Shown here: positions 1,663-30,115 of the stretch, in pieces | How positions within the stretch are numbered: position 1 is the first letter of the stretch | How the letters are laid out: every line of letters starts with the position of its first letter | Origin: Caballeronia telluris | GTDB taxonomy: Bacteria > Pseudomonadota > Gammaproteobacteria > Burkholderiales > Burkholderiaceae | Assembly (NCBI RefSeq): GCF_001544495.1 | Contig: NZ_FCNZ02000017.1 | Location: 62,001-126,000, forward strand | DNA length: 64,000 nt | Direction: 5' to 3' | The notes under the pieces: generated by a model | Told to the model about the DNA's origin: nothing | What the model saw: the letters and a program-made list of their open reading frames with translations, nothing else | The model's database searches: none | Program-made: the position numbers and the translations under genes

Positions 1663-2760
1663 ATGAACGTCAACGAATACTACGAACACGAACTGCAGAC
1701 GCGGGGATACCAGTCGGACGAAGCGCAGCGGGCGGCGGTCGAGCGCCTGCAACGCTGCTACGACGAATGGGTCGCGTACAAGGCGCGCCGCTCGAACGCG
1801 CTCAAGAAGTTCCTCGTGCGTCCCGAGCTGCCGCGCGGCGTGTACATGTGGGGCGGCGTGGGACGCGGCAAGAGCTTCCTGATGGACAGCTTTTTCGCAG
1901 TCGTGCCCGTGACGCGCAAGACGCGGCTGCATTTTCACGAATTCATGCGCGAAGTGCATCGCGAACTGGAAGAGCTGAAGGGCCAGGCCGATCCGCTCGA
2001 CGAACTCGCGCGGCGGATCGCGAAGCGCTACCGGCTGATCTGTTTCGACGAATTCCACGTCTCCGACATCGCCGACGCGATGATCCTGTATCGCCTGCTC
2101 GACCGGCTCTTCGACAACGGCGTGCAGTTCGTGATGACGTCCAACTACGATCCCGACACGCTGTATCCCGACGGCCTGCATCGCGACCGCCTGCTGCCTG
2201 CCATCGAACTGATCAAGTCGAAGCTGGACGTGTTGAACGTCGATGCCGGCACCGACTACCGCAAGCGCACGCTGTCGCAGGTCACGGCGTATCACACGCC
2301 GCTTGGCGCCGCTGCCGACAAGGCGTTGCGCGCCGACTTCGCGAAACTCGCGGCGGTCCCGGACGAGAGCCCGATCCTGCACATCGAGAAGCGTGAGCTG
2401 AAGGCATTGCGCAAGGCGGACGGCGTCGTCTGGTTCGACTTCGCGACGCTTTGCGGCGGCCCGCGCTCGCAGAACGACTATCTGGAACTCGCGAGCCGTT
2501 TCCACGCGGTGATCCTGTCGGACGTGCCGCAGATGTCGCCGCGCATGGCGTCCGAGGCGCGCCGCTTCACGTGGCTCATCGACGTCTTCTACGACCACAA
2601 GGTGAAGCTCCTGATGTCGGCGGCGGTGCCGGCGGAGCAACTGTACGTCGAAGGTCCGATGGCGAACGAGTTCGCGCGCACGGTTTCGCGCATCGTCGAG
2701 ATGCAGAGCAAGGAATATCTGGAGACGCCGCGGCGCATCGTCGATACCTCGCTGACTTGA
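1663..2760 (+). CDS. zapE: Cell division protein ZapE (AFG1-like ATPase)
   Basis: ZapE is an AAA-type P-loop ATPase that associates with FtsZ at the constricting ring. The 365-residue protein has Walker A GGVGRGKSFLMD near residue 65 and Walker B LICFDEFHVSDIADAM near residue 125, followed by the family segment with MTSNYDPDTLYPDGLHRDRLLP. The frame is open further upstream, but the start at 1663 (MNVNEYYEHEL) fits the family length. An in-frame ATG at 1651 is possible. It follows lpdA, as in many Burkholderiaceae. Confidence 0.93.
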   Translation: MNVNEYYEHELQTRGYQSDEAQRAAVERLQRCYDEWVAYKARRSNALKKFLVRPELPRGVYMWGGVGRGKSFLMDSFFAVVPVTRKTRLHFHEFMREVHRELEELKGQADPLDELARRIAKRYRLICFDEFHVSDIADAMILYRLLDRLFDNGVQFVMTSNYDPDTLYPDGLHRDRLLPAIELIKSKLDVLNVDAGTDYRKRTLSQVTAYHTPLGAAADKALRADFAKLAAVPDESPILHIEKRELKALRKADGVVWFDFATLCGGPRSQNDYLELASRFHAVILSDVPQMSPRMASEARRFTWLIDVFYDHKVKLLMSAAVPAEQLYVEGPMANEFARTVSRIVEMQSKEYLETPRRIVDTSLT

Positions 2761-2897
2761 GAATGTGTATCAATAATGTCGGCTAGGCCAAATGGCTAAA
2801 GGCTTCGGCTTCATTTTCAAGATTAAGACATTTCTGATACCGACACTGAGGGGCGGCCGGTATCTTCCATGCACACTCAACGTGTATGGAGAAACGC

Positions 2898-3338
2898 ATG
2901 AAGCCCTATCGCGACATGACCGATGAAGAATGGCAGATGGTCGCACCGTTGCTTCCCGAGCTGCGGCCGCGCGCGGAGTTACGTGGGCGTCCGCTGGCGA
3001 ACACGCGGGCCGTTCTGAACGGCGTGCTGTGGGTGATGTACAGCGGCGCGTCGTGGTCCACGCTGCCGCGCAAGTATCCCTCGTATCAGACCTGCCATCG
3101 CCGCTTCAAGGCGTGGCACGATTCCGGCATCCTCGCTCGCGTGATGGTGCAATTGTTCGGTCCGGCAGGCGAGAGCCTGTATTCGCTGATGACGTCGCGC
3201 ATGCGCGTGCCCGGAAACCTCCCGGAGGCGATGGAAAGCGCGATGCCCGAGCACTCGATCCTGCACGATATGCCGCCGGCGAGCCCCGAGCTTCTGCCGC
3301 CGCGTTTCGCGCCCGGCGTGGTGCGGCGTGCGGCTTGA
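2898..3338 (+). CDS. Orphan IS5/DUF4096-type transposase N-terminal domain protein
   Basis: This 146-residue protein has a first ~95 residues (YRDMTDEEWQMVAPLLPE, NGVLWVMYSGASWSTLPRKYP, CHRRFKAWHDSGIL) that read as the DUF4096 helix-turn-helix domain found at the N terminus of IS5/IS1182-type transposases. The DDE catalytic domain is absent. A non-transposase tail rich in Pro and Met follows. TGGAGA sits 5 bp before the ATG at 2898, which makes this start better than the in-frame ATG at 2886. No terminal inverted repeats are visible and a clean terminator follows. It may be a domesticated DNA-binding protein. Its function is unknown. Confidence 0.7.
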   Translation: MKPYRDMTDEEWQMVAPLLPELRPRAELRGRPLANTRAVLNGVLWVMYSGASWSTLPRKYPSYQTCHRRFKAWHDSGILARVMVQLFGPAGESLYSLMTSRMRVPGNLPEAMESAMPEHSILHDMPPASPELLPPRFAPGVVRRAA

Positions 3339-3369
3339 GGTGTCGCGACGCTTTCGATAGCCTCGTCGC

Positions 3370-3409
3370 AAAAAACCGGCCAAAGACAAAAGTCTTTGGC
3401 CGGTTTTTT
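3370..3409. terminator. Bidirectional intrinsic terminator
   Basis: Arms 3370-3387 and 3392-3409 pair perfectly (A6-CCGGCCAAAGAC against its complement) around an AAAA loop, giving T-runs on both strands. It separates the converging genes 2898-3338 and 3439-3903. Confidence 0.9.
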
Positions 3410-3438
3410 TATGCGCCGTCCGATCCGTGATGCAAGGC

Positions 3439-3903
3439 CTACTGCTGCCGAATCCACGTCTGCGATCGCCCCAGGAGCGACACGCCGATGAACCCTCGCA
3501 CCACGAGCTTCTGCCCGCCTTCCTCGAGGTGCATCTTGCACTTGTAGAGCTTGCCGCTTTCGGGATCGAGGATCTGGCCGCCTTGCCATTCGTCGCCGTC
3601 CTGCTTCATGCCGGTGATGAACGTCATGCCCTTGATCAGCTGATCCTTGCGCGCATCCGTGCACGCGGTGCAGCGGCGCTCCGGTTTGTCGTTTTCGCCC
3701 AGACCTTTCACGATCTTGCCCGACAGCGTGCCGTTGCCGTCCTCGACGATCTCGACCACGGCCTTCGCCTGGCCGGTGTGATCGTCGATGGTTTGCCATA
3801 CGCCCACGGGCGAATTGTTTTGAGCTGCCGCGAGCGTCGCCGATGCGACGAGCGCGCAGGCCAGCACGCCGCGCGACAACGCGCCTGCCGTGAAACGGAT
3901 CAT
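3439..3903 (-). CDS. Periplasmic DUF2147 domain protein
   Basis: The 154-residue exported protein has a signal peptide of about 27 residues (hydrophobic GVLACALVASATLAAA, cleavage near AAA-QN). The mature part begins SPVGVWQTIDDHTGQAKAVVEI and contains the paired CTAC motif and the GMTFITGMKQDGDEWQGGQILDPESGKLY region, both characteristic of DUF2147. The family is a small beta-rich periplasmic fold of unknown function. The start has a strong AAGGAGG ribosome site. It is monocistronic, between a terminator and surE. Confidence 0.85.
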   Translation of the reverse strand: MIRFTAGALSRGVLACALVASATLAAAQNNSPVGVWQTIDDHTGQAKAVVEIVEDGNGTLSGKIVKGLGENDKPERRCTACTDARKDQLIKGMTFITGMKQDGDEWQGGQILDPESGKLYKCKMHLEEGGQKLVVRGFIGVSLLGRSQTWIRQQ

Positions 3904-14444: not shown

Positions 14445-15665
14445 CTACGTCGCCGCCCCCACGCCCCGCGCCGACTGCGTCATGTCGACCCCACGACGCT
14501 CGCGGCTGAACAGGATGAGCACGGCGATCACCACCGCGACCGTCCCCGCGACGATCGCCATCGCCATCCCGTAATTATTGTCGTGGCTGACCGCGAGCGA
14601 CGCCTGCATCGTCGCGTTCACCGACGCGAGCAGATTCCCCAACTGATAGACGAGGCCGGGGAAGGTCGCGCGAATCTCGTCGGGCGAAATCTCGTTCAGG
14701 TGCACGGGAATCACGCCCCACGCGCCCTGAACGGAAATCTGCATCAGGAAGGCGCCCGCCGCGAGCGCGAGCGGCCCGCTCGAGAACGCCCACAGCGGCA
14801 GCACCGGCAAGGCGATCAGCGACGCGATGAAGATCGCCCGGCGCCGCCCGATCTTCTCCGACATCGCCCCGAAAAAGAGCCCGCCGACGATCGCGCCGAT
14901 GTTCAGCGTGATCGTGATCAAGGAGACCGTGTGCGGATCGAAATGATGTTGCTCGCGCAGGAACGTCGGATAGAGATCCTGCGTGCCGTGCGAGAAGAAG
15001 TTGAACGCGGTCATCAGCACGATCGCGTAGACGGAGAGCGCCCAGTTCTGCTTGAGCGTCTTGACGAGCCCGGGGCGCGGCTGCTTTTCCATCGCCTTGA
15101 ACGCGGGCGACTCGGGCACGTGCGCGCGCACGTAGAGCACGAGCAGCGCGGGCGCCACGCCGATGAAGAACATCCCGCGCCAGCCGACATACTGATACAG
15201 CACGCCGAAGACGATCGACGCGAGCAGATAGCCGCTCGGATAACCGGCCTGCAAAAGCCCCGAGACGAAACCGCGCGATTTGGGCGGCACGGTTTCCATC
15301 GTCAGCGCGGAGCCGACGCCCCATTCGCCGCCCATCGCGATGCCGAACAGCGACCGCAACACGAGCAGCGTCAGCAGGTTCGGCGACAACCCCGAGAGCA
15401 GTTCGAGCAGCGAATAGCACGCGATGTTGATCATCAGCGTCGGACGGCGGCCGAACTTGTCGGCGAGGCGCCCGAAGATCAGCGCGCCGATGGGGCGCAT
15501 CGCGAGCGTCAGCGTGATCGCGAAGGCCACCTCGGGGATTTTCGTATTGAATTCGGCCGCTATGTCCTTCAATACGAAAACCATCAGGAAAAAATCGAAG
15601 GCGTCGAGTGTCCAGCCGAGATAGGCGGCAATCGTTACGTTTCTCTGTTCTCGCGTCCAGCTCAT
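14445..15665 (-). CDS. MFS transporter, sialate/carboxylate (SHS/JEN-like) type
   Basis: A 406-residue inner-membrane carrier with 12 predicted transmembrane segments. The N terminus (LGWTLDAFDFFLMVFVLKDIA) and the MFS signatures GRLADKFGRRPTL between TM2 and TM3 and GAMSEKIGRRRAIF in the second half are clear. The AMGGEWGVGSALTMETVPPKSRG segment is typical of the metabolite:H+ symporter and lactate/sialate groups. The substrate is probably a monocarboxylate or sugar acid, but this cannot be settled from sequence. It lies upstream of fadE, with its own terminator. Confidence 0.8.
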   Translation of the reverse strand: MSWTREQRNVTIAAYLGWTLDAFDFFLMVFVLKDIAAEFNTKIPEVAFAITLTLAMRPIGALIFGRLADKFGRRPTLMINIACYSLLELLSGLSPNLLTLLVLRSLFGIAMGGEWGVGSALTMETVPPKSRGFVSGLLQAGYPSGYLLASIVFGVLYQYVGWRGMFFIGVAPALLVLYVRAHVPESPAFKAMEKQPRPGLVKTLKQNWALSVYAIVLMTAFNFFSHGTQDLYPTFLREQHHFDPHTVSLITITLNIGAIVGGLFFGAMSEKIGRRRAIFIASLIALPVLPLWAFSSGPLALAAGAFLMQISVQGAWGVIPVHLNEISPDEIRATFPGLVYQLGNLLASVNATMQASLAVSHDNNYGMAMAIVAGTVAVVIAVLILFSRERRGVDMTQSARGVGAAT

Positions 15666-16019
15666 CGCCGTGGTCTCCGGTTCGAATCGATTTGATGGGA
15701 AAGCGATGCGGCCGGCAGAAGCGAAACCGTGATCCGGCGGGGACCGGCCGCACAGGGCGCCCGAGCGAGGCGGGCACGGGCGAGTGTACGCCGGTGTTTA
15801 ATAAACTGCTCGCGGTCCCGATATTCGATTCGGTATTCGAAATGCGTAAATTCGATAATCAATACAATTGGCATTCGATTTCAATGCGCTTATGCGGCTC
15901 GATTAAACGCGATGAAAGAATTCGGCTCTCGTCAGACGGATCAGCCGGCGTTCCGTTTTGCGATTCGTCAAGGAACGCCGCCTTCGGAATGTCGATATTG
16001 GACGAGGACAGTCAAAAAC
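15666..16019. other. Non-coding region upstream of the MFS gene, AT-rich with ATTCGA repeats
   Basis: No gene is seen. The segment 15800-15915 is clearly richer in AT than its surroundings and holds four copies of ATTCGA(T) at 15823, 15835, 15850 and 15873. A 9-bp inverted repeat (CGGCGTTCC at 15946-15954, complement at 15972-15980) lies just before the FNR-type box. These may be operators for the divergent MFS gene or for the promoter to the right. Confidence 0.4.
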
Positions 16020-16060
16020 TTGATCTACATCAAGGTTGCTCGGGGCGGCGCGCATATCAT
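16020..16060 (+). promoter_or_regulatory. FNR/ANR box with class II promoter geometry
   Basis: TTGATCTACATCAA at 16020-16033 is a perfect FNR consensus (TTGAT-N4-ATCAA). A -10-like TATCAT lies at 16055-16060. A start site near 16067-16068 would put the box centre at about -41.5, which is the class II activation distance. It fires rightward. Confidence 0.8.
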
Positions 16061-16066
16061 GCGGCC

Positions 16067-16169
16067 AGATCAGATAAATCTAAGACGTTTCCTAGAGTTT
16101 CCTAGTGTCCGGGCGAATCTGCGTCCCGGTCGGCGCATGCGCACCGAGAGGCGTATGCGCATTTTTTTT
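16067..16169 (+). ncRNA. Candidate FNR-controlled small RNA (about 100 nt) or terminated leader
   Basis: Downstream of the FNR-type promoter, a hairpin with 10-bp arms (16133-16142 with 16151-16160, one G-T pair, 8-nt loop) is followed by A and eight T at 16162-16169, a textbook intrinsic terminator. It lies before any credible start codon. The predicted transcript of about 103 nt contains a tandem GTTTCCTAG (16087-16095 and 16097-16105), whose UUUCCU core is complementary to AGGAAA-type ribosome sites. A CCGGG/CCCGG stem lies at 16109-16129. This layout matches FNR-induced small RNAs such as FnrS. It could also be an attenuated leader of the chemoreceptor gene. The boundaries are predicted. 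Confidence 0.55.
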
Positions 16170-16231
16170 CACAGTGTTGAGTTTCCATTGGCGAGCGGAT
16201 GATCGCTGTCGCCATCAATGAGCATAATCAG

Positions 16232-17818
16232 ATGAATCATTTCATACACACGATCCGGTTCCGGATCATTCTTTCGTTCGGCATCTGTGGGGCGCTGATG
16301 CTGGTCATCGGCCTTTTCGGGATCGACGCCATTTCCAAACTGCGCGCCGACCTGTCGATCGCCTATTCGGGCAATCTGGTTCCGACGACCCAGCTTTCGA
16401 GAGTCCATATCAGCCAGTCTCAGATTCGCCGCCTGCTTTGGCAACTTCAGGCCACGCAGGATAAGGACATTCCCGAAAAGATCCGAAAGCTCGAAGGCAC
16501 GGTGAATGCAACGTGGGCGAGCTACTACCCGTCCGGCATTACGAGCGACGCCGAACGCGCAGTCGCCGACCGTATCCAGGTCCAACTCGGCAAATTCAAG
16601 CTGTTGGTCGATCAGCAATTGACGCTCGTCGAAAAAGGCGCCTATCAGGAAGCGACCGAATTTCAGCGGAATTCCGTCTTGCCCGCCGGTAACGCACTGG
16701 GCGATCTGCTCGACGAGGACATCGACCTGAACGTCCGCCAGAGCCGTGGATTTGTCGCGGACAGCACCAACACCTCGCGGCAGATGATCTGGATCACGGT
16801 GGCGCTGCTGTGCATGGGCGGGATGTTGATGCTCGGCACCTCGCTGTATCTGTTCGGCGCAATCTCGACGCCGCTGACGCGATCGGTCGGCGTGGCGAAG
16901 GAAATCGCCGACGGGCGTCTGGACGGCCGGATCGTGGTCGACACGCGCGGCGAGTTCGCGCCGCTCCTCGAAGCGATGCAGCGCATGAGCCGGCAACTGG
17001 CCGATACCGTACGTGGCATCCGGGTGTCGAGCGAATCGGTGACGACGGCCGCGCGCGAGATCGCCGCGGGCAATATGGACCTGTCCGCGCGCACGGAGGA
17101 ACAGGCTTCGTCGCTCGAGGAAACGGCCGCGAGCATGACCGAGATCGCGCAGACCGTGAAGCAGAATGCCGACAACGCACGCCAGGCCAATTCGCTCGCC
17201 ACTTCGGCAAGCGGCATGGCCGACGACAGCCATGTCGCGATGCAGGCGATGATGCGCTCGATCGGCAACATCAGCGAGAGTTCCGGGAAGATCGCCGACA
17301 TCACGACGATGATCGAAGGCATTTCGTTCCAGACCAACATTCTGGCGCTCAACGCGGCGGTCGAGGCCGCGCGCGCGGGCGAGCAGGGCCGCGGCTTCGC
17401 CGTGGTGGCGGGCGAAGTGCGGGCGCTGGCGCAACGCTCGTCCGCGGCGGCCAAGGAGATCAAGGACCTGATCGACGCGTCGACCGTGCTGGTCAACGAC
17501 GGCTCCCGACAGGCTGCGGAGGTGGGAACCCTGATGGGGCAGGTGATCCGTGCGATCAAGCAGGTCGCGGATATCGTGGGCGAAATCTCGTCCGCGTCGC
17601 ACGAGCAGAGCCAGGGCATCGATCAGGTGCATCAGGCGATCAGCCAGATCGATTCCGTGACGCAGCAGAACGCGGCACTGGTCGAGCAGGCGGCGGCCGC
17701 GGCGCAATCGCTCGAGGAGCAGGCCGTCAACATGACGGATGCCATCTCGACGTTCCATCTGCCGGTCGGCGATGGCGTCCTGCCCGCAGCGCGCCGGCCG
17801 CTCGCCCTCACATGCTGA
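16232..17818 (+). CDS. Methyl-accepting chemotaxis protein
   Basis: A chemoreceptor of 528 residues from this start; an in-frame ATG at 16199 would give 539. Neither start has a clear ribosome site. TM1 (FRIILSFGICGALMLVIGLFGI) is followed by a periplasmic four-helix-bundle-like domain of about 150 residues and TM2 (MIWITVALLCMGGMLMLG). Then come a HAMP domain and a signalling domain with the hairpin tip NILALNAAVEAARAGEQGRGFAVVAGEVRAL split across 17338-17440. No C-terminal CheR-binding pentapeptide is visible. The stop overlaps the start of the globin-EAL gene by 7 bp, so the two are probably translated together. Confidence 0.92.
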   Translation: MNHFIHTIRFRIILSFGICGALMLVIGLFGIDAISKLRADLSIAYSGNLVPTTQLSRVHISQSQIRRLLWQLQATQDKDIPEKIRKLEGTVNATWASYYPSGITSDAERAVADRIQVQLGKFKLLVDQQLTLVEKGAYQEATEFQRNSVLPAGNALGDLLDEDIDLNVRQSRGFVADSTNTSRQMIWITVALLCMGGMLMLGTSLYLFGAISTPLTRSVGVAKEIADGRLDGRIVVDTRGEFAPLLEAMQRMSRQLADTVRGIRVSSESVTTAAREIAAGNMDLSARTEEQASSLEETAASMTEIAQTVKQNADNARQANSLATSASGMADDSHVAMQAMMRSIGNISESSGKIADITTMIEGISFQTNILALNAAVEAARAGEQGRGFAVVAGEVRALAQRSSAAAKEIKDLIDASTVLVNDGSRQAAEVGTLMGQVIRAIKQVADIVGEISSASHEQSQGIDQVHQAISQIDSVTQQNAALVEQAAAAAQSLEEQAVNMTDAISTFHLPVGDGVLPAARRPLALTC

Positions 17819-19941
17819 AGTACGCTCGATACGCCGCAAACGACGCTCGGGCGGCCGAGGAAAACGCGCAGCTTTACTGCGACGCGAGCGCAGCCACGCT
17901 GTCGGCGCTGCACGACGCCCTGCAAACCCGCGTCGCCGCCATCGTCGAACGACTGCATGTCGAGCTCGCGCGCCTGCCGCGAGCCAAGCGCCTGCTCGAA
18001 GCGCTTACGGTCGACGAGTCGCGGCGCGTGAAGGAGCAGCAGATGCACCATCTGCTCGCGCTGGCAAACGTTCAACTGACGCAGGAAAACCATCGGGACA
18101 TCGCGCATCGGGCGGGGCGCATGCACGCGATCGCGGGGCTCGACCGCGAAGATCTGATCGACGCCTATGCGCTTCTCGCCGACGCGCTGCAACGCGAATT
18201 CGATACCGCGCTGCAGGGAGGAGCGCTCGACGCGCTCATGCGCCGTCTGACGCGCGATCTCGCGTTCCAGATGGAGGCGTACCGGTTCCTGCAGGATGCG
18301 CGCCACGACGTGATCGCCTCGATTGCGCGCGTGACGGCCGAAGTCCGCTGCTACACGGACCTGATCGAAGGCGTCGTCGGCATTCTGGGCGCACACGCCG
18401 AGATCGCGGGCTGCGCGGTCGGCCGTCCCGACGCGCGCGGGCTCTTCCAATTCGAAGCCGTATCCGATCGACGCATCGGCCAATACCTCAGGGATGCCGA
18501 CGCCTTGATCGACGTCGGCGCAGCCAGCGACGATGCAGACGGACAGCCGGACCGGCCGATTATCCACTCGTGGCGCCGCGGCGAGATCGATCGCGTGATC
18601 AACATGGCGACCGACGTCCGGATGACGCCGTTCAGCCCGTTTGCGCTGGCGGCGGGTCTGCGCTCGGCGGCGACCGTCCCGGTGCGGCGCGCGACCCGCG
18701 AGCCGAGGGCGATTCTCATCGTCTATGGCGTGCTTCCCGGCGGCTTCGCGGGCGCGGATCAGGCCGACTTTCTATCGCTCGTGCAGACGATGCTCGAACT
18801 CGTGGTGTGCAGGATCGAACAGCTCGACGGCAGCACGGCGGCGACGCCATATCCCGTGCGGCAGCGGCTGTCGGGCCTGATCCGCTCGGACGGTCTGCGG
18901 ATGCACTACCAGCCGCTGGTCGATCTCAGGACCGGACGGATCGGCGGGGTCGAGGCGCTCGCGCGACTCCAGGACGGCGACGCCACGCTCGCGCCGGGCC
19001 AGTTCCTGGCGAATCTGTCGCACGAAGATCTGTTCGGCCTCTTCACCGGCGGTCTGGATCAGGCGCTGCGGCAACGCAGCGAGTGGCTGCGCGACGGCCT
19101 CGACCTGGGCATCTCGGTCAACCTTCCGCCGGCCGCCTTCACGGACCGGCGCTATGTCGAGACGACCCGCGCGGCGCTGCAAAAATACGGCTGTGTGCCG
19201 AACAAGCTGACGCTCGAGGTTCTGGAGAGCGAAGAGCTGCCGCGCGGCATTCGCATTCTGGACGAAATCGCGAGGTTCAAGTCCCTGGGCGTCGAGTTGG
19301 CGCAGGACGACCTCGGCGTGGGCTACAGCAGCCTGAACCGGCTGCGCGAATTGCCGTTCGATTCGTTCAAGATCGATCGCAGCATCGTCAGGCTCGACGG
19401 TCAGGACAGCCTCGATGCCTTGCGTTTCATCTATCAGTTGACGCGCCTCGGCCATTCGCTCGGGATGTCGGTGACCGTGGAGGGCGTGGAAGAGGAGGAC
19501 CTGATCGAGGCGCTCGTGATCCTCGATGCGGATCGCGCGCAAGGCTATGCGATCGCGCGTCCGATGCCTGCCGAGGCCGTCGCGGGCTGGATACGCGGGC
19601 GGAAGTTGCCTGAGTCGAAGGCGCCGGGCGGAAGGCTGGGCAAGCTTGCGAGGCTCGTGATCTGGGAGGAGAGCGTGCAGCTCAATACGGTGGTCTCTCG
19701 CGAAGCGCGGGCGCTGCTTCACGCTGACAGCTGCGAGGCCGACCACAGCATGAAACAGGCATTGAGCGCGTCATGCCGGGATTGTGCGTATCCGATGTAC
19801 TGCATCGACGACGAAGCGATCCTGCTTGCGTCGCCGTGTGGGACGAAGGCTGGAAGCGAACTGGTCGAACTCGCGTTGGGCGCGGGAATGAAAAGCGAGG
19901 CGTATCTGGCTGCCCGCCGCGAGCTGATCGCGAAGATGTGA
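17812..19941 (+). CDS. Globin-coupled sensor with GAF-like region and EAL c-di-GMP phosphodiesterase
   Basis: A 709-residue cytoplasmic protein. Residues ~20-160 read as a globin-coupled sensor: LQTRVAAIVERLHVEL, then the GRMHAIAGLDREDLIDAY segment, where H105 would be the proximal haem ligand. Residues ~165-345 look GAF-like. The EAL domain (~355-600) keeps VEALARL (E381), SVNLPP, LTLEVLESEE, DDLGVGYSS (D499, D500), FKIDRS, TVEGVE and QGYAIARP, so it should hydrolyse c-di-GMP. There is no GGDEF domain. A ~100-residue C-terminal extension contains C641 and CRDCAYPMYC (C655, C658, C664). The gene overlaps the chemoreceptor stop (ATGCTGA), and an FNR-type promoter lies upstream of the pair. Likely role: oxygen- or NO-gated c-di-GMP breakdown. 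Confidence 0.82.
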   Translation: MLKYARYAANDARAAEENAQLYCDASAATLSALHDALQTRVAAIVERLHVELARLPRAKRLLEALTVDESRRVKEQQMHHLLALANVQLTQENHRDIAHRAGRMHAIAGLDREDLIDAYALLADALQREFDTALQGGALDALMRRLTRDLAFQMEAYRFLQDARHDVIASIARVTAEVRCYTDLIEGVVGILGAHAEIAGCAVGRPDARGLFQFEAVSDRRIGQYLRDADALIDVGAASDDADGQPDRPIIHSWRRGEIDRVINMATDVRMTPFSPFALAAGLRSAATVPVRRATREPRAILIVYGVLPGGFAGADQADFLSLVQTMLELVVCRIEQLDGSTAATPYPVRQRLSGLIRSDGLRMHYQPLVDLRTGRIGGVEALARLQDGDATLAPGQFLANLSHEDLFGLFTGGLDQALRQRSEWLRDGLDLGISVNLPPAAFTDRRYVETTRAALQKYGCVPNKLTLEVLESEELPRGIRILDEIARFKSLGVELAQDDLGVGYSSLNRLRELPFDSFKIDRSIVRLDGQDSLDALRFIYQLTRLGHSLGMSVTVEGVEEEDLIEALVILDADRAQGYAIARPMPAEAVAGWIRGRKLPESKAPGGRLGKLARLVIWEESVQLNTVVSREARALLHADSCEADHSMKQALSASCRDCAYPMYCIDDEAILLASPCGTKAGSELVELALGAGMKSEAYLAARRELIAKM

Positions 19942-20062: not shown

Positions 20063-20149
20063 TGGTGCCCAGGAGAGGACTCGAACCTCCACGGTGTTGC
20101 CACCGCTAGGACCTGAACCTAGTGCGTCTACCAATTCCGCCACCTGGGC
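20063..20149 (-). tRNA. tRNA-Leu (anticodon CAG)
   Basis: Read on the minus strand it starts GCCCAGGTGGCGGAATTGG and ends in an encoded CCA (87 nt). The acceptor stem is GCCCAGG/CCTGGGC and the anticodon arm is CTAGG-TTCAGGT-CCTAG, giving anticodon CAG for CUG codons. It has a class II long variable arm and the T-loop GGTTCGAGTCC. It is the second gene of a tandem pair. Confidence 0.97.
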
Positions 20150-20274: not shown

Positions 20275-20361
20275 TGGTGCCCAAGAGAGGACTCGAACCT
20301 CCACGGTGTTGCCACCGCCAGGACCTGAACCTGGTGCGTCTACCAATTCCGCCACCTGGGC
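20275..20361 (-). tRNA. tRNA-Leu (anticodon CAG), second copy
   Basis: It is near-identical to the neighbouring copy over 87 nt, with encoded CCA. The anticodon arm is CCAGG-TTCAGGT-CCTGG. It differs in compensating pairs of the anticodon stem and has one G-T pair in the acceptor stem. It is the promoter-proximal gene of the pair. Confidence 0.97.
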
Positions 20362-29353: not shown

Positions 29354-30097
29354 TCAGGCGCTCGTGGTCGAGGGTTCGGTCGCACGCAAGCGCGGCAGCA
29401 GGCGGTCGAATTCGCGCTTCACGAGGCCGTAGCATTCGCATGCACGCGCTTCGAGTCCTTCGCGATCGACGACCTTGATGCAGCCGCGGCTGTGATGAAT
29501 GAGGCCCGCATCGTGCAGCTTGCCGGCCGCTTCGGTCACGCCTTCGCGGCGCACGCCCAGCATGTCCGCGATCAGTTGCTGCGTGACCTGAAGTTCGTTC
29601 GACGCCGTGCGGTCGATCTCGATCAGGAGCCAGCGGCAAAGCTGCTTGTTGAGCGAGTGATGCCGGTTGCAGGCCGCCGTCTGTGCGACTTGCGTGAGCA
29701 GCGCCTGCATGTAGAGCAGCATCAGGCGGCGCAGGAAGTCGGAGCGGCCGAACTGTTCGCGCAGTGCCTGCGCGCTCATCCGGTATGCGAAGCCGGGGCA
29801 TTGCACCTGCACGCGCGTCGGCATCGTTTCGCCGCCCGTGAGTACCGGCACGCCCGTCATGCCTTCGCGGCCGACTGCGGCGATCTCGACGGAGCCGCCG
29901 TCTTCCATCGTATGCAGGAGCGAGATGATCGCGGTGGTGGGGAAATAAACGTGATGAATGCGCTGGCCCGAATCACACAGCAGCTGTTCGGTGCGAAGTT
30001 GAACGAGTTCGAGGTGCGGTGTTAGTGCTTGCCATTCGTGCGCCGGAAGCGCGCCCAGCAAATGGTTTCCATGCAGGTCGGACTGAAGGGTCAGCAT
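29354..30097 (-). CDS. Crp/Fnr family transcriptional regulator
   Basis: A 247-residue regulator with an N-terminal cyclic-nucleotide-binding-like beta barrel (LRTEQLLCDSGQRIHHVYFPTTAIISLLHTMEDG) and a C-terminal winged helix (LQVTQQLIADMLGVRREGVTEAAGKLHDAGLIHHSRG). The Fnr-type N-terminal cysteine cluster is missing, so it is not a classical oxygen sensor. The ATG at 30097 has a GAGAG-type site; a GTG at 30115 is the alternative. The wcaJ-like gene lies 41 bp downstream in the same direction, so it probably controls polysaccharide synthesis, perhaps in response to a second messenger. Confidence 0.88.
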   Translation of the reverse strand: MLTLQSDLHGNHLLGALPAHEWQALTPHLELVQLRTEQLLCDSGQRIHHVYFPTTAIISLLHTMEDGGSVEIAAVGREGMTGVPVLTGGETMPTRVQVQCPGFAYRMSAQALREQFGRSDFLRRLMLLYMQALLTQVAQTAACNRHHSLNKQLCRWLLIEIDRTASNELQVTQQLIADMLGVRREGVTEAAGKLHDAGLIHHSRGCIKVVDREGLEARACECYGLVKREFDRLLPRLRATEPSTTSA

Positions 30098-30115
30098 GAT
30101 TTTTTCTCTCGTCAC

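Follow-up and report, generated by a model that had tools for sequence, protein, structure and literature searches.

FnrS is a short RNA that ends in an intrinsic terminator and has a gene of its own. In leader attenuation a promoter and a structured leader are followed by an intrinsic terminator before the first gene of the operon. The chemoreceptor Aer carries a PAS domain. FnrS of Escherichia coli is induced anaerobically by FNR and is highly conserved in E. coli, according to passages of PMC10993149, where one of the references cited is to a Neisseria meningitidis RNA that is controlled by FNR and depends on Hfq; a passage of PMC8595263 also refers to the FnrS work. The aer gene of Pseudomonas aeruginosa is under ANR control, as stated in a passage of PMC13401364 that cites Hong et al. 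2004. In the genus Burkholderia, the sections consulted of a review of small RNAs in the Burkholderia cepacia complex (PMC10987360) mention low-oxygen conditions and name no FNR-driven RNA, and a study of B. thailandensis, judging by excerpts from it, included anaerobic samples (PMC4035088). The operon described below was not found in the titles and abstract openings of the papers listed on Caballeronia small RNAs or on FNR and chemoreceptor, EAL or globin genes in Burkholderia.

We have analyzed a window of 64,000 nucleotides from Caballeronia telluris (contig NZ_FCNZ02000017.1). The features of one locus within it are collected in Table 1. This locus is probably an FNR-activated class II promoter of an operon of a chemoreceptor gene and a protoglobin-EAL gene, with a terminator in the leader that acts as a fixed or regulated attenuator. 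As with the ANR-controlled aer described in the passage cited above, a chemoreceptor gene would be placed under an FNR-family anaerobic regulator, but the receptor here has a 4HB domain, a protoglobin-EAL partner gene and a terminator in its leader. The partner shares with DosP-type c-di-GMP phosphodiesterases (NCBIfam PRK11359) the EAL output and a predicted haem oxygen sensor; the sensor here is a protoglobin, however, and the match to PRK11359 covers only the EAL part (130.7 bits against a cut-off of 857). The locus would share with FnrS anaerobic induction by FNR and a short RNA ending in an intrinsic terminator, but here the promoter belongs to an operon, and no counterpart of the RNA part turned up in the relatives searched. 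The promoter, structured leader and terminator before the first gene are those of an attenuated leader.

Table 1. Features of the FNR-box locus in the window
Feature	Position	Strand	Basis
FNR box, perfect palindrome TTGATCTACATCAA	16020..16033	+	sequence reading; similar boxes 5' of homologues
-10 hexamer TATCAT, 21 nt 3' of box	16055..16060	+	sequence reading
Predicted terminated leader RNA, ~103 nt	16067..16169	+	inferred from promoter and terminator
Tandem GTTTCCTAG, 16087-16095 and 16097-16105	16087..16105	+	sequence reading
First leader hairpin	16106..16132	+	predicted fold
Intrinsic terminator: 10-bp stem and 8-nt loop (16133-16160), A, eight T	16133..16169	+	sequence reading, scoring
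Chemoreceptor (4HB_MCP_1, HAMP, MCPsignal)	16232..17818	+	domain search; start set by homologues
Protoglobin-EAL protein, predicted oxygen-sensing c-di-GMP phosphodiesterase	17812..19941	+	domain search

Promoter and leader in the window

The first-pass annotation of this DNA had described a perfect FNR palindrome followed by TATCAT, with the box centre about 41.5 bp from the transcription start, and both elements were read where it had placed them. The predicted start is 16067 or 16068, so that the box centre lies at about -40.5 or -41.5, in agreement with the spacing first proposed. The box near -41.5 and the -10 hexamer at a fitting distance are the arrangement of a class II FNR promoter, with the start as predicted. 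Base composition alone gives an expectation of ~0.005 perfect boxes per 64 kb. The whole genome (7.06 Mb) contains 3, against 0 of the reversed pattern; of the other two, one is inside a 379-codon stop-free frame and one is 311 bases from a contig end. The relaxed pattern TTGAYN4RTCAA is not enriched genome-wide (11 sites versus 10 for the control), and thus the box on its own is weak evidence. The site in the window is the only one of the 11, counted on both strands, with a stem-10 terminator within 300 nt; one other has a 6-bp hairpin match within that distance.

The genome also encodes an FNR homologue, which was found by a PF13545 search. It has cysteines at positions 14, 17, 23, 116 and 127, and thus the N-terminal cysteine cluster of an FNR-type regulator, and it scores 226.8 bits against NCBIfam PRK11161, just below the cut-off of 228. 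The window itself carries a Crp-family regulator gene (29354-30115, minus strand) that matches PF13545 and is, by eye, without the FNR cysteine cluster.

The hairpin followed by A and eight T that had been reported to end at 16169 was confirmed in full. In 250 Markov-shuffled versions of the leader its terminator score of +12.2 was never attained, and stems of at least 10 with a T tail occur at a mean of 0.1 per 64-kb strand in 20 controls. An intrinsic terminator is therefore present between the promoter and the first gene, as in an attenuator. The predicted RNA as a whole folds only moderately better than expected (-34.1 kcal/mol, z -1.89, with 9 of 200 shuffles as good). Both copies of the tandem repeat are present as claimed. 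In the predicted fold, however, the copies are not wholly free, because their CUAG ends pair together.

In other respects the leader departs from known attenuated leaders. No leader peptide with a ribosome site was seen by eye, and a search of 15500-16800 against Rfam gave no match at E up to 1, and so no Rfam riboswitch. The first repeat can pair with the 3' side of the terminator at intermediate transcript lengths and was considered as an antiterminator, but among 500 controls its pair count is equalled in 31% and its energy in 18%. Since this pairing is not above chance, regulated readthrough has no structural support from it. No second promoter was seen 3' of the terminator, and a flagellar sigma-28 promoter was rejected, the sole match, at 16177, having 4 mismatches in 12. 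The sequence ATCAGATAAATC (16069-16080), near the predicted RNA start, resembles ATCAGATGAATC (16227-16238), at the chemoreceptor start codon, in 11 of 12 positions.

The chemoreceptor gene had been placed about 30 bp beyond the terminator. This distance did not hold: homologues align from the methionine at 16232, which puts the start 62 bases after it. The chemoreceptor stop and the protoglobin-EAL start overlap in the window. Both genes are open and have their domains, and the EAL motifs and globin histidine region, viewed by eye, are presumably intact.

Recurrence of the promoter with chemoreceptor and EAL genes

Homologues were sought with the N-terminal part of the chemoreceptor as query. 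Hits were obtained in 6 of 58 genomes of the genus at 1e-10 (own genome included), in 58 of 398 genomes of a family sample at 1e-20, and, at 1e-30, in 34 of 144 genomes of the genus of Paraburkholderia hiiakae (G341) and in 6 of 60 of the genus of G326. The closest 11 homologues, with at least 178 bits and 40-44% identity over 206 residues, were taken for comparison. These are from C. pedi (L130), C. cordobensis (L131), P. hiiakae (L132), a third genus (L133) and seven loci, L134-L140, that share the genus of P. hiiakae and include one recorded as Burkholderia sp.

The 300 nt upstream of each start were scanned for the box, and chance was assessed with 2000 Markov shuffles of each region. A box with no more than two mismatches is found in 10 of the 11: it is perfect in L130 and L132, has one mismatch in L131, L133, L137 and L138, and has two in L134, L135, L139 and L140, while L136 has three. 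The chance of an equally good box ranges from 0.0005 to 0.55 per homologue, and the boxes with two or three mismatches (L134-L136, L139, L140) are individually not significant (0.09-0.55). A -10 hexamer (TAGCAT, TACGAT or TAGGAT) follows the box after 22-23 nt in all but L133; the test required A as the second and T as the sixth base of a hexamer lying 20-24 nt beyond the box, and 4-13% of positions in these regions would satisfy it. Within 300 nt, 6 of the 11 close homologues have a box with one mismatch or none, versus 1 of 20 weaker ones. Distant homologues are not wholly free of it: one-mismatch boxes precede L066 (500 nt scanned) as well as L040 and L041, described below. This recurrence of box and -10 spacing 5' of homologous chemoreceptor genes gives further support to the class II promoter that had been proposed.

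A same-strand EAL gene lies 3' of the chemoreceptor gene in 10 of the 11 loci, again with L133 as the exception. The similarity spans nearly the whole protoglobin-EAL protein in L130-L132 and only the EAL part in L134-L140. Chemoreceptor-EAL pairs, with or without globin similarity, thus recur behind FNR-like boxes (L130-L132, L134-L140), in Caballeronia and in Paraburkholderia. L134-L140 belong to a single group and L130 is close to L131, so that the recurrence amounts, with the window, to about four of five lineages. The promoter recurs together with the operon and so appears to be the operon's own. In L130-L132 the two genes are separated by ~0.46-0.48 kb, in contrast to the overlap in the window, and this gap makes co-transcription less certain in these three loci and to that extent weighs against our preferred reading.

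A weaker twelfth homologue (L141, in G483) was left out of these counts; it has a perfect box, but neither a -10 at the right distance nor an EAL gene. Near 1458 in L141 the perfect box, by eye, centres a longer inverted repeat, atatgccgtc...gacggcatat. Two distant chemoreceptor homologues, L040 (C. cordobensis) and L041 (C. pedi), lie near the L131 and L130 genes, respectively, on shared contigs, and have a one-mismatch box, TTGATTGCCGTCAA, ~230-250 nt upstream of the match. The P. hiiakae locus contains two related chemoreceptor genes back to back (287-1819 and 2201-3730, reverse complement), with the FNR-type promoter between them.

Conservation of the RNA part and a search for targets

A search of the 57 further genomes of the genus, with at most 13 candidates scored per genome, found no counterpart of the repeat-terminator part. 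The best other match there had an E-value of 0.0026 over ~40 nt, and the matches at 16028-16069 in L002 and L013 look by eye like coding sequence. Among 60 relatives nothing was found at E 0.001, and a DNA search of plasmids gave no convincing homologue. Nor did the family sample of 398 genomes, in which at most two candidates were scored per genome. Here short matches (17-40 nt, E up to 0.01) came from 17 other genomes, seven of them from genus g35. The nine weak matches inspected all lie inside frames of 212-663 codons free of stops, a hint at coding sequence, though not proof, in DNA as GC-rich as this. By eye, no leader of a homologue carries the GTTTCCTAG repeat. Within the few candidates scored per genome, the searches thus found no sign that relatives conserve the RNA, as would befit an FnrS-like RNA. 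The first-pass annotation had named a lack of conservation of box, repeat and terminator in relatives as evidence against it; as far as the searches reach, the repeat and terminator are not conserved, while the box is.

The leaders also vary in length, the distance from box to start codon being 212 nt in the window, 125-148 nt in L130-L133 and 221-222 nt in L134-L140. The last group, a single clade, has a weaker hairpin followed by T-rich TTCTTCTTC or a variant of it, with terminator scores of -38.7 to -4.8. It ends ~157-159 nt after the start of the box, compared to 140 nt in the window. In five of these leaders the score was reached by 2, 5, 7, 12 and 27 of 250 shuffles, and in the other two by 0 of 40. 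The leaders of L130-L132 have no terminator-like site above shuffles (23-25 of 40 as good), and that of L133 has a weak one, whose score was reached by 1 of 40. These scores hint, without proving it, that long-leader operons more widely carry a hairpin in the leader. For the seven long leaders together, the covariation term from RNAalifold is unfavourable (+1.74 kcal/mol), with two-sided changes in 2 of 46 pairs, and five single long leaders fold about like their shuffles (z -0.05 to -1.45).

The UUUCCU core of the repeats had been proposed to pair with ribosome sites. This proposal gained nothing from a genome-wide search with one 8-nt seed: TAGGAAAC occurs 2-10 nt before an ATG at 2 places, versus 3 for the reversed control. 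The two places precede genes that by eye resemble hisZ and a NodT-type efflux gene.

Readings of the locus

The headline of the first-pass annotation was a dedicated FnrS-type small RNA of 103 nt with tandem UUUCCU seeds, the operon being served by another promoter. Its layout is real, and the promoter, length, U8 tail and hairpin all fit such an RNA. An RNA gene of its own is nonetheless doubtful despite the terminator, as the promoter recurs with the operon and no other was seen beyond the terminator. The lack of a homologue in the 57 genomes and the 60 relatives, of a convincing one in the 398-genome sample and of an Rfam match, together with a start-codon seed search no better than its control, also speaks against this reading, which we consider improbable. 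A conserved, free-standing regulatory RNA is probably not what the locus encodes, although a short terminated RNA may nonetheless be made. The annotation had offered an attenuated leader of the chemoreceptor gene as its alternative, and with the promoter tied to the operon this is the better fit. An FNR box followed by a terminator thus need not mean a small-RNA gene.

It is also conceivable, if unlikely, that the operon shares its one FNR promoter with a trans-acting small RNA into which the terminated leader has evolved. A single promoter, a strong terminator and open genes behind it would be expected in that case, but the target search lent it no support (2 places, control 3) and the RNA part was not found elsewhere among the species searched. 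In a more elaborate form, one FNR promoter would yield both a trans-acting RNA, made at low oxygen from the terminated leader and bearing two tandem seeds, and, through controlled readthrough, the operon of chemoreceptor and globin-based phosphodiesterase. This is a long shot; if true, oxygen would set motility at the levels of transcription, RNA and second messenger. Least probable of all, in our estimate, is a terminator recently gained that damps or silences the operon and has no regulatory role. In C. pedi, C. cordobensis and P. hiiakae (one genome per species) the leader lacks such a terminator, as this would predict; set against it are the two open genes with their domains and the recurrence, in seven leaders from a different clade, of a weaker hairpin followed by a T-rich tract.

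We therefore return to the operon with a terminator in its leader. The elements in the window, the recurrence in relatives of the box, the -10 spacing and the chemoreceptor-EAL pair, and the FNR homologue can all be read in the genomes; FNR binding, the start site and co-transcription are inferred, as are the efficiency of termination, readthrough and its possible control. As oxygen falls, FNR would bind the box and transcription would begin at about 16067. The strong leader terminator would stop many transcripts at 16169, giving an RNA of ~100 nt, and a fraction would read through into the genes for the chemoreceptor and for a phosphodiesterase whose globin is predicted to sense oxygen. The terminator, as an attenuator that is either fixed or regulated, would keep output low or add a second condition; it may serve for fixed damping, for regulated attenuation or as the source of a useful short RNA. 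Cells short of oxygen would then adjust taxis and c-di-GMP jointly, and the predicted FNR-controlled operon would tie taxis to c-di-GMP turnover. The leader terminator makes it simple to test whether gating after initiation occurs in such operons.

The MFS and RNase R neighbours in the window were not found at E 1e-10 in 18 homologous loci (7.5-8.6 kb), five of them from genomes already represented among the rest. Just behind the operon in the window are two tandem tRNA-Leu(CAG) genes on the minus strand (20063-20149 and 20275-20361), a possible integration site.
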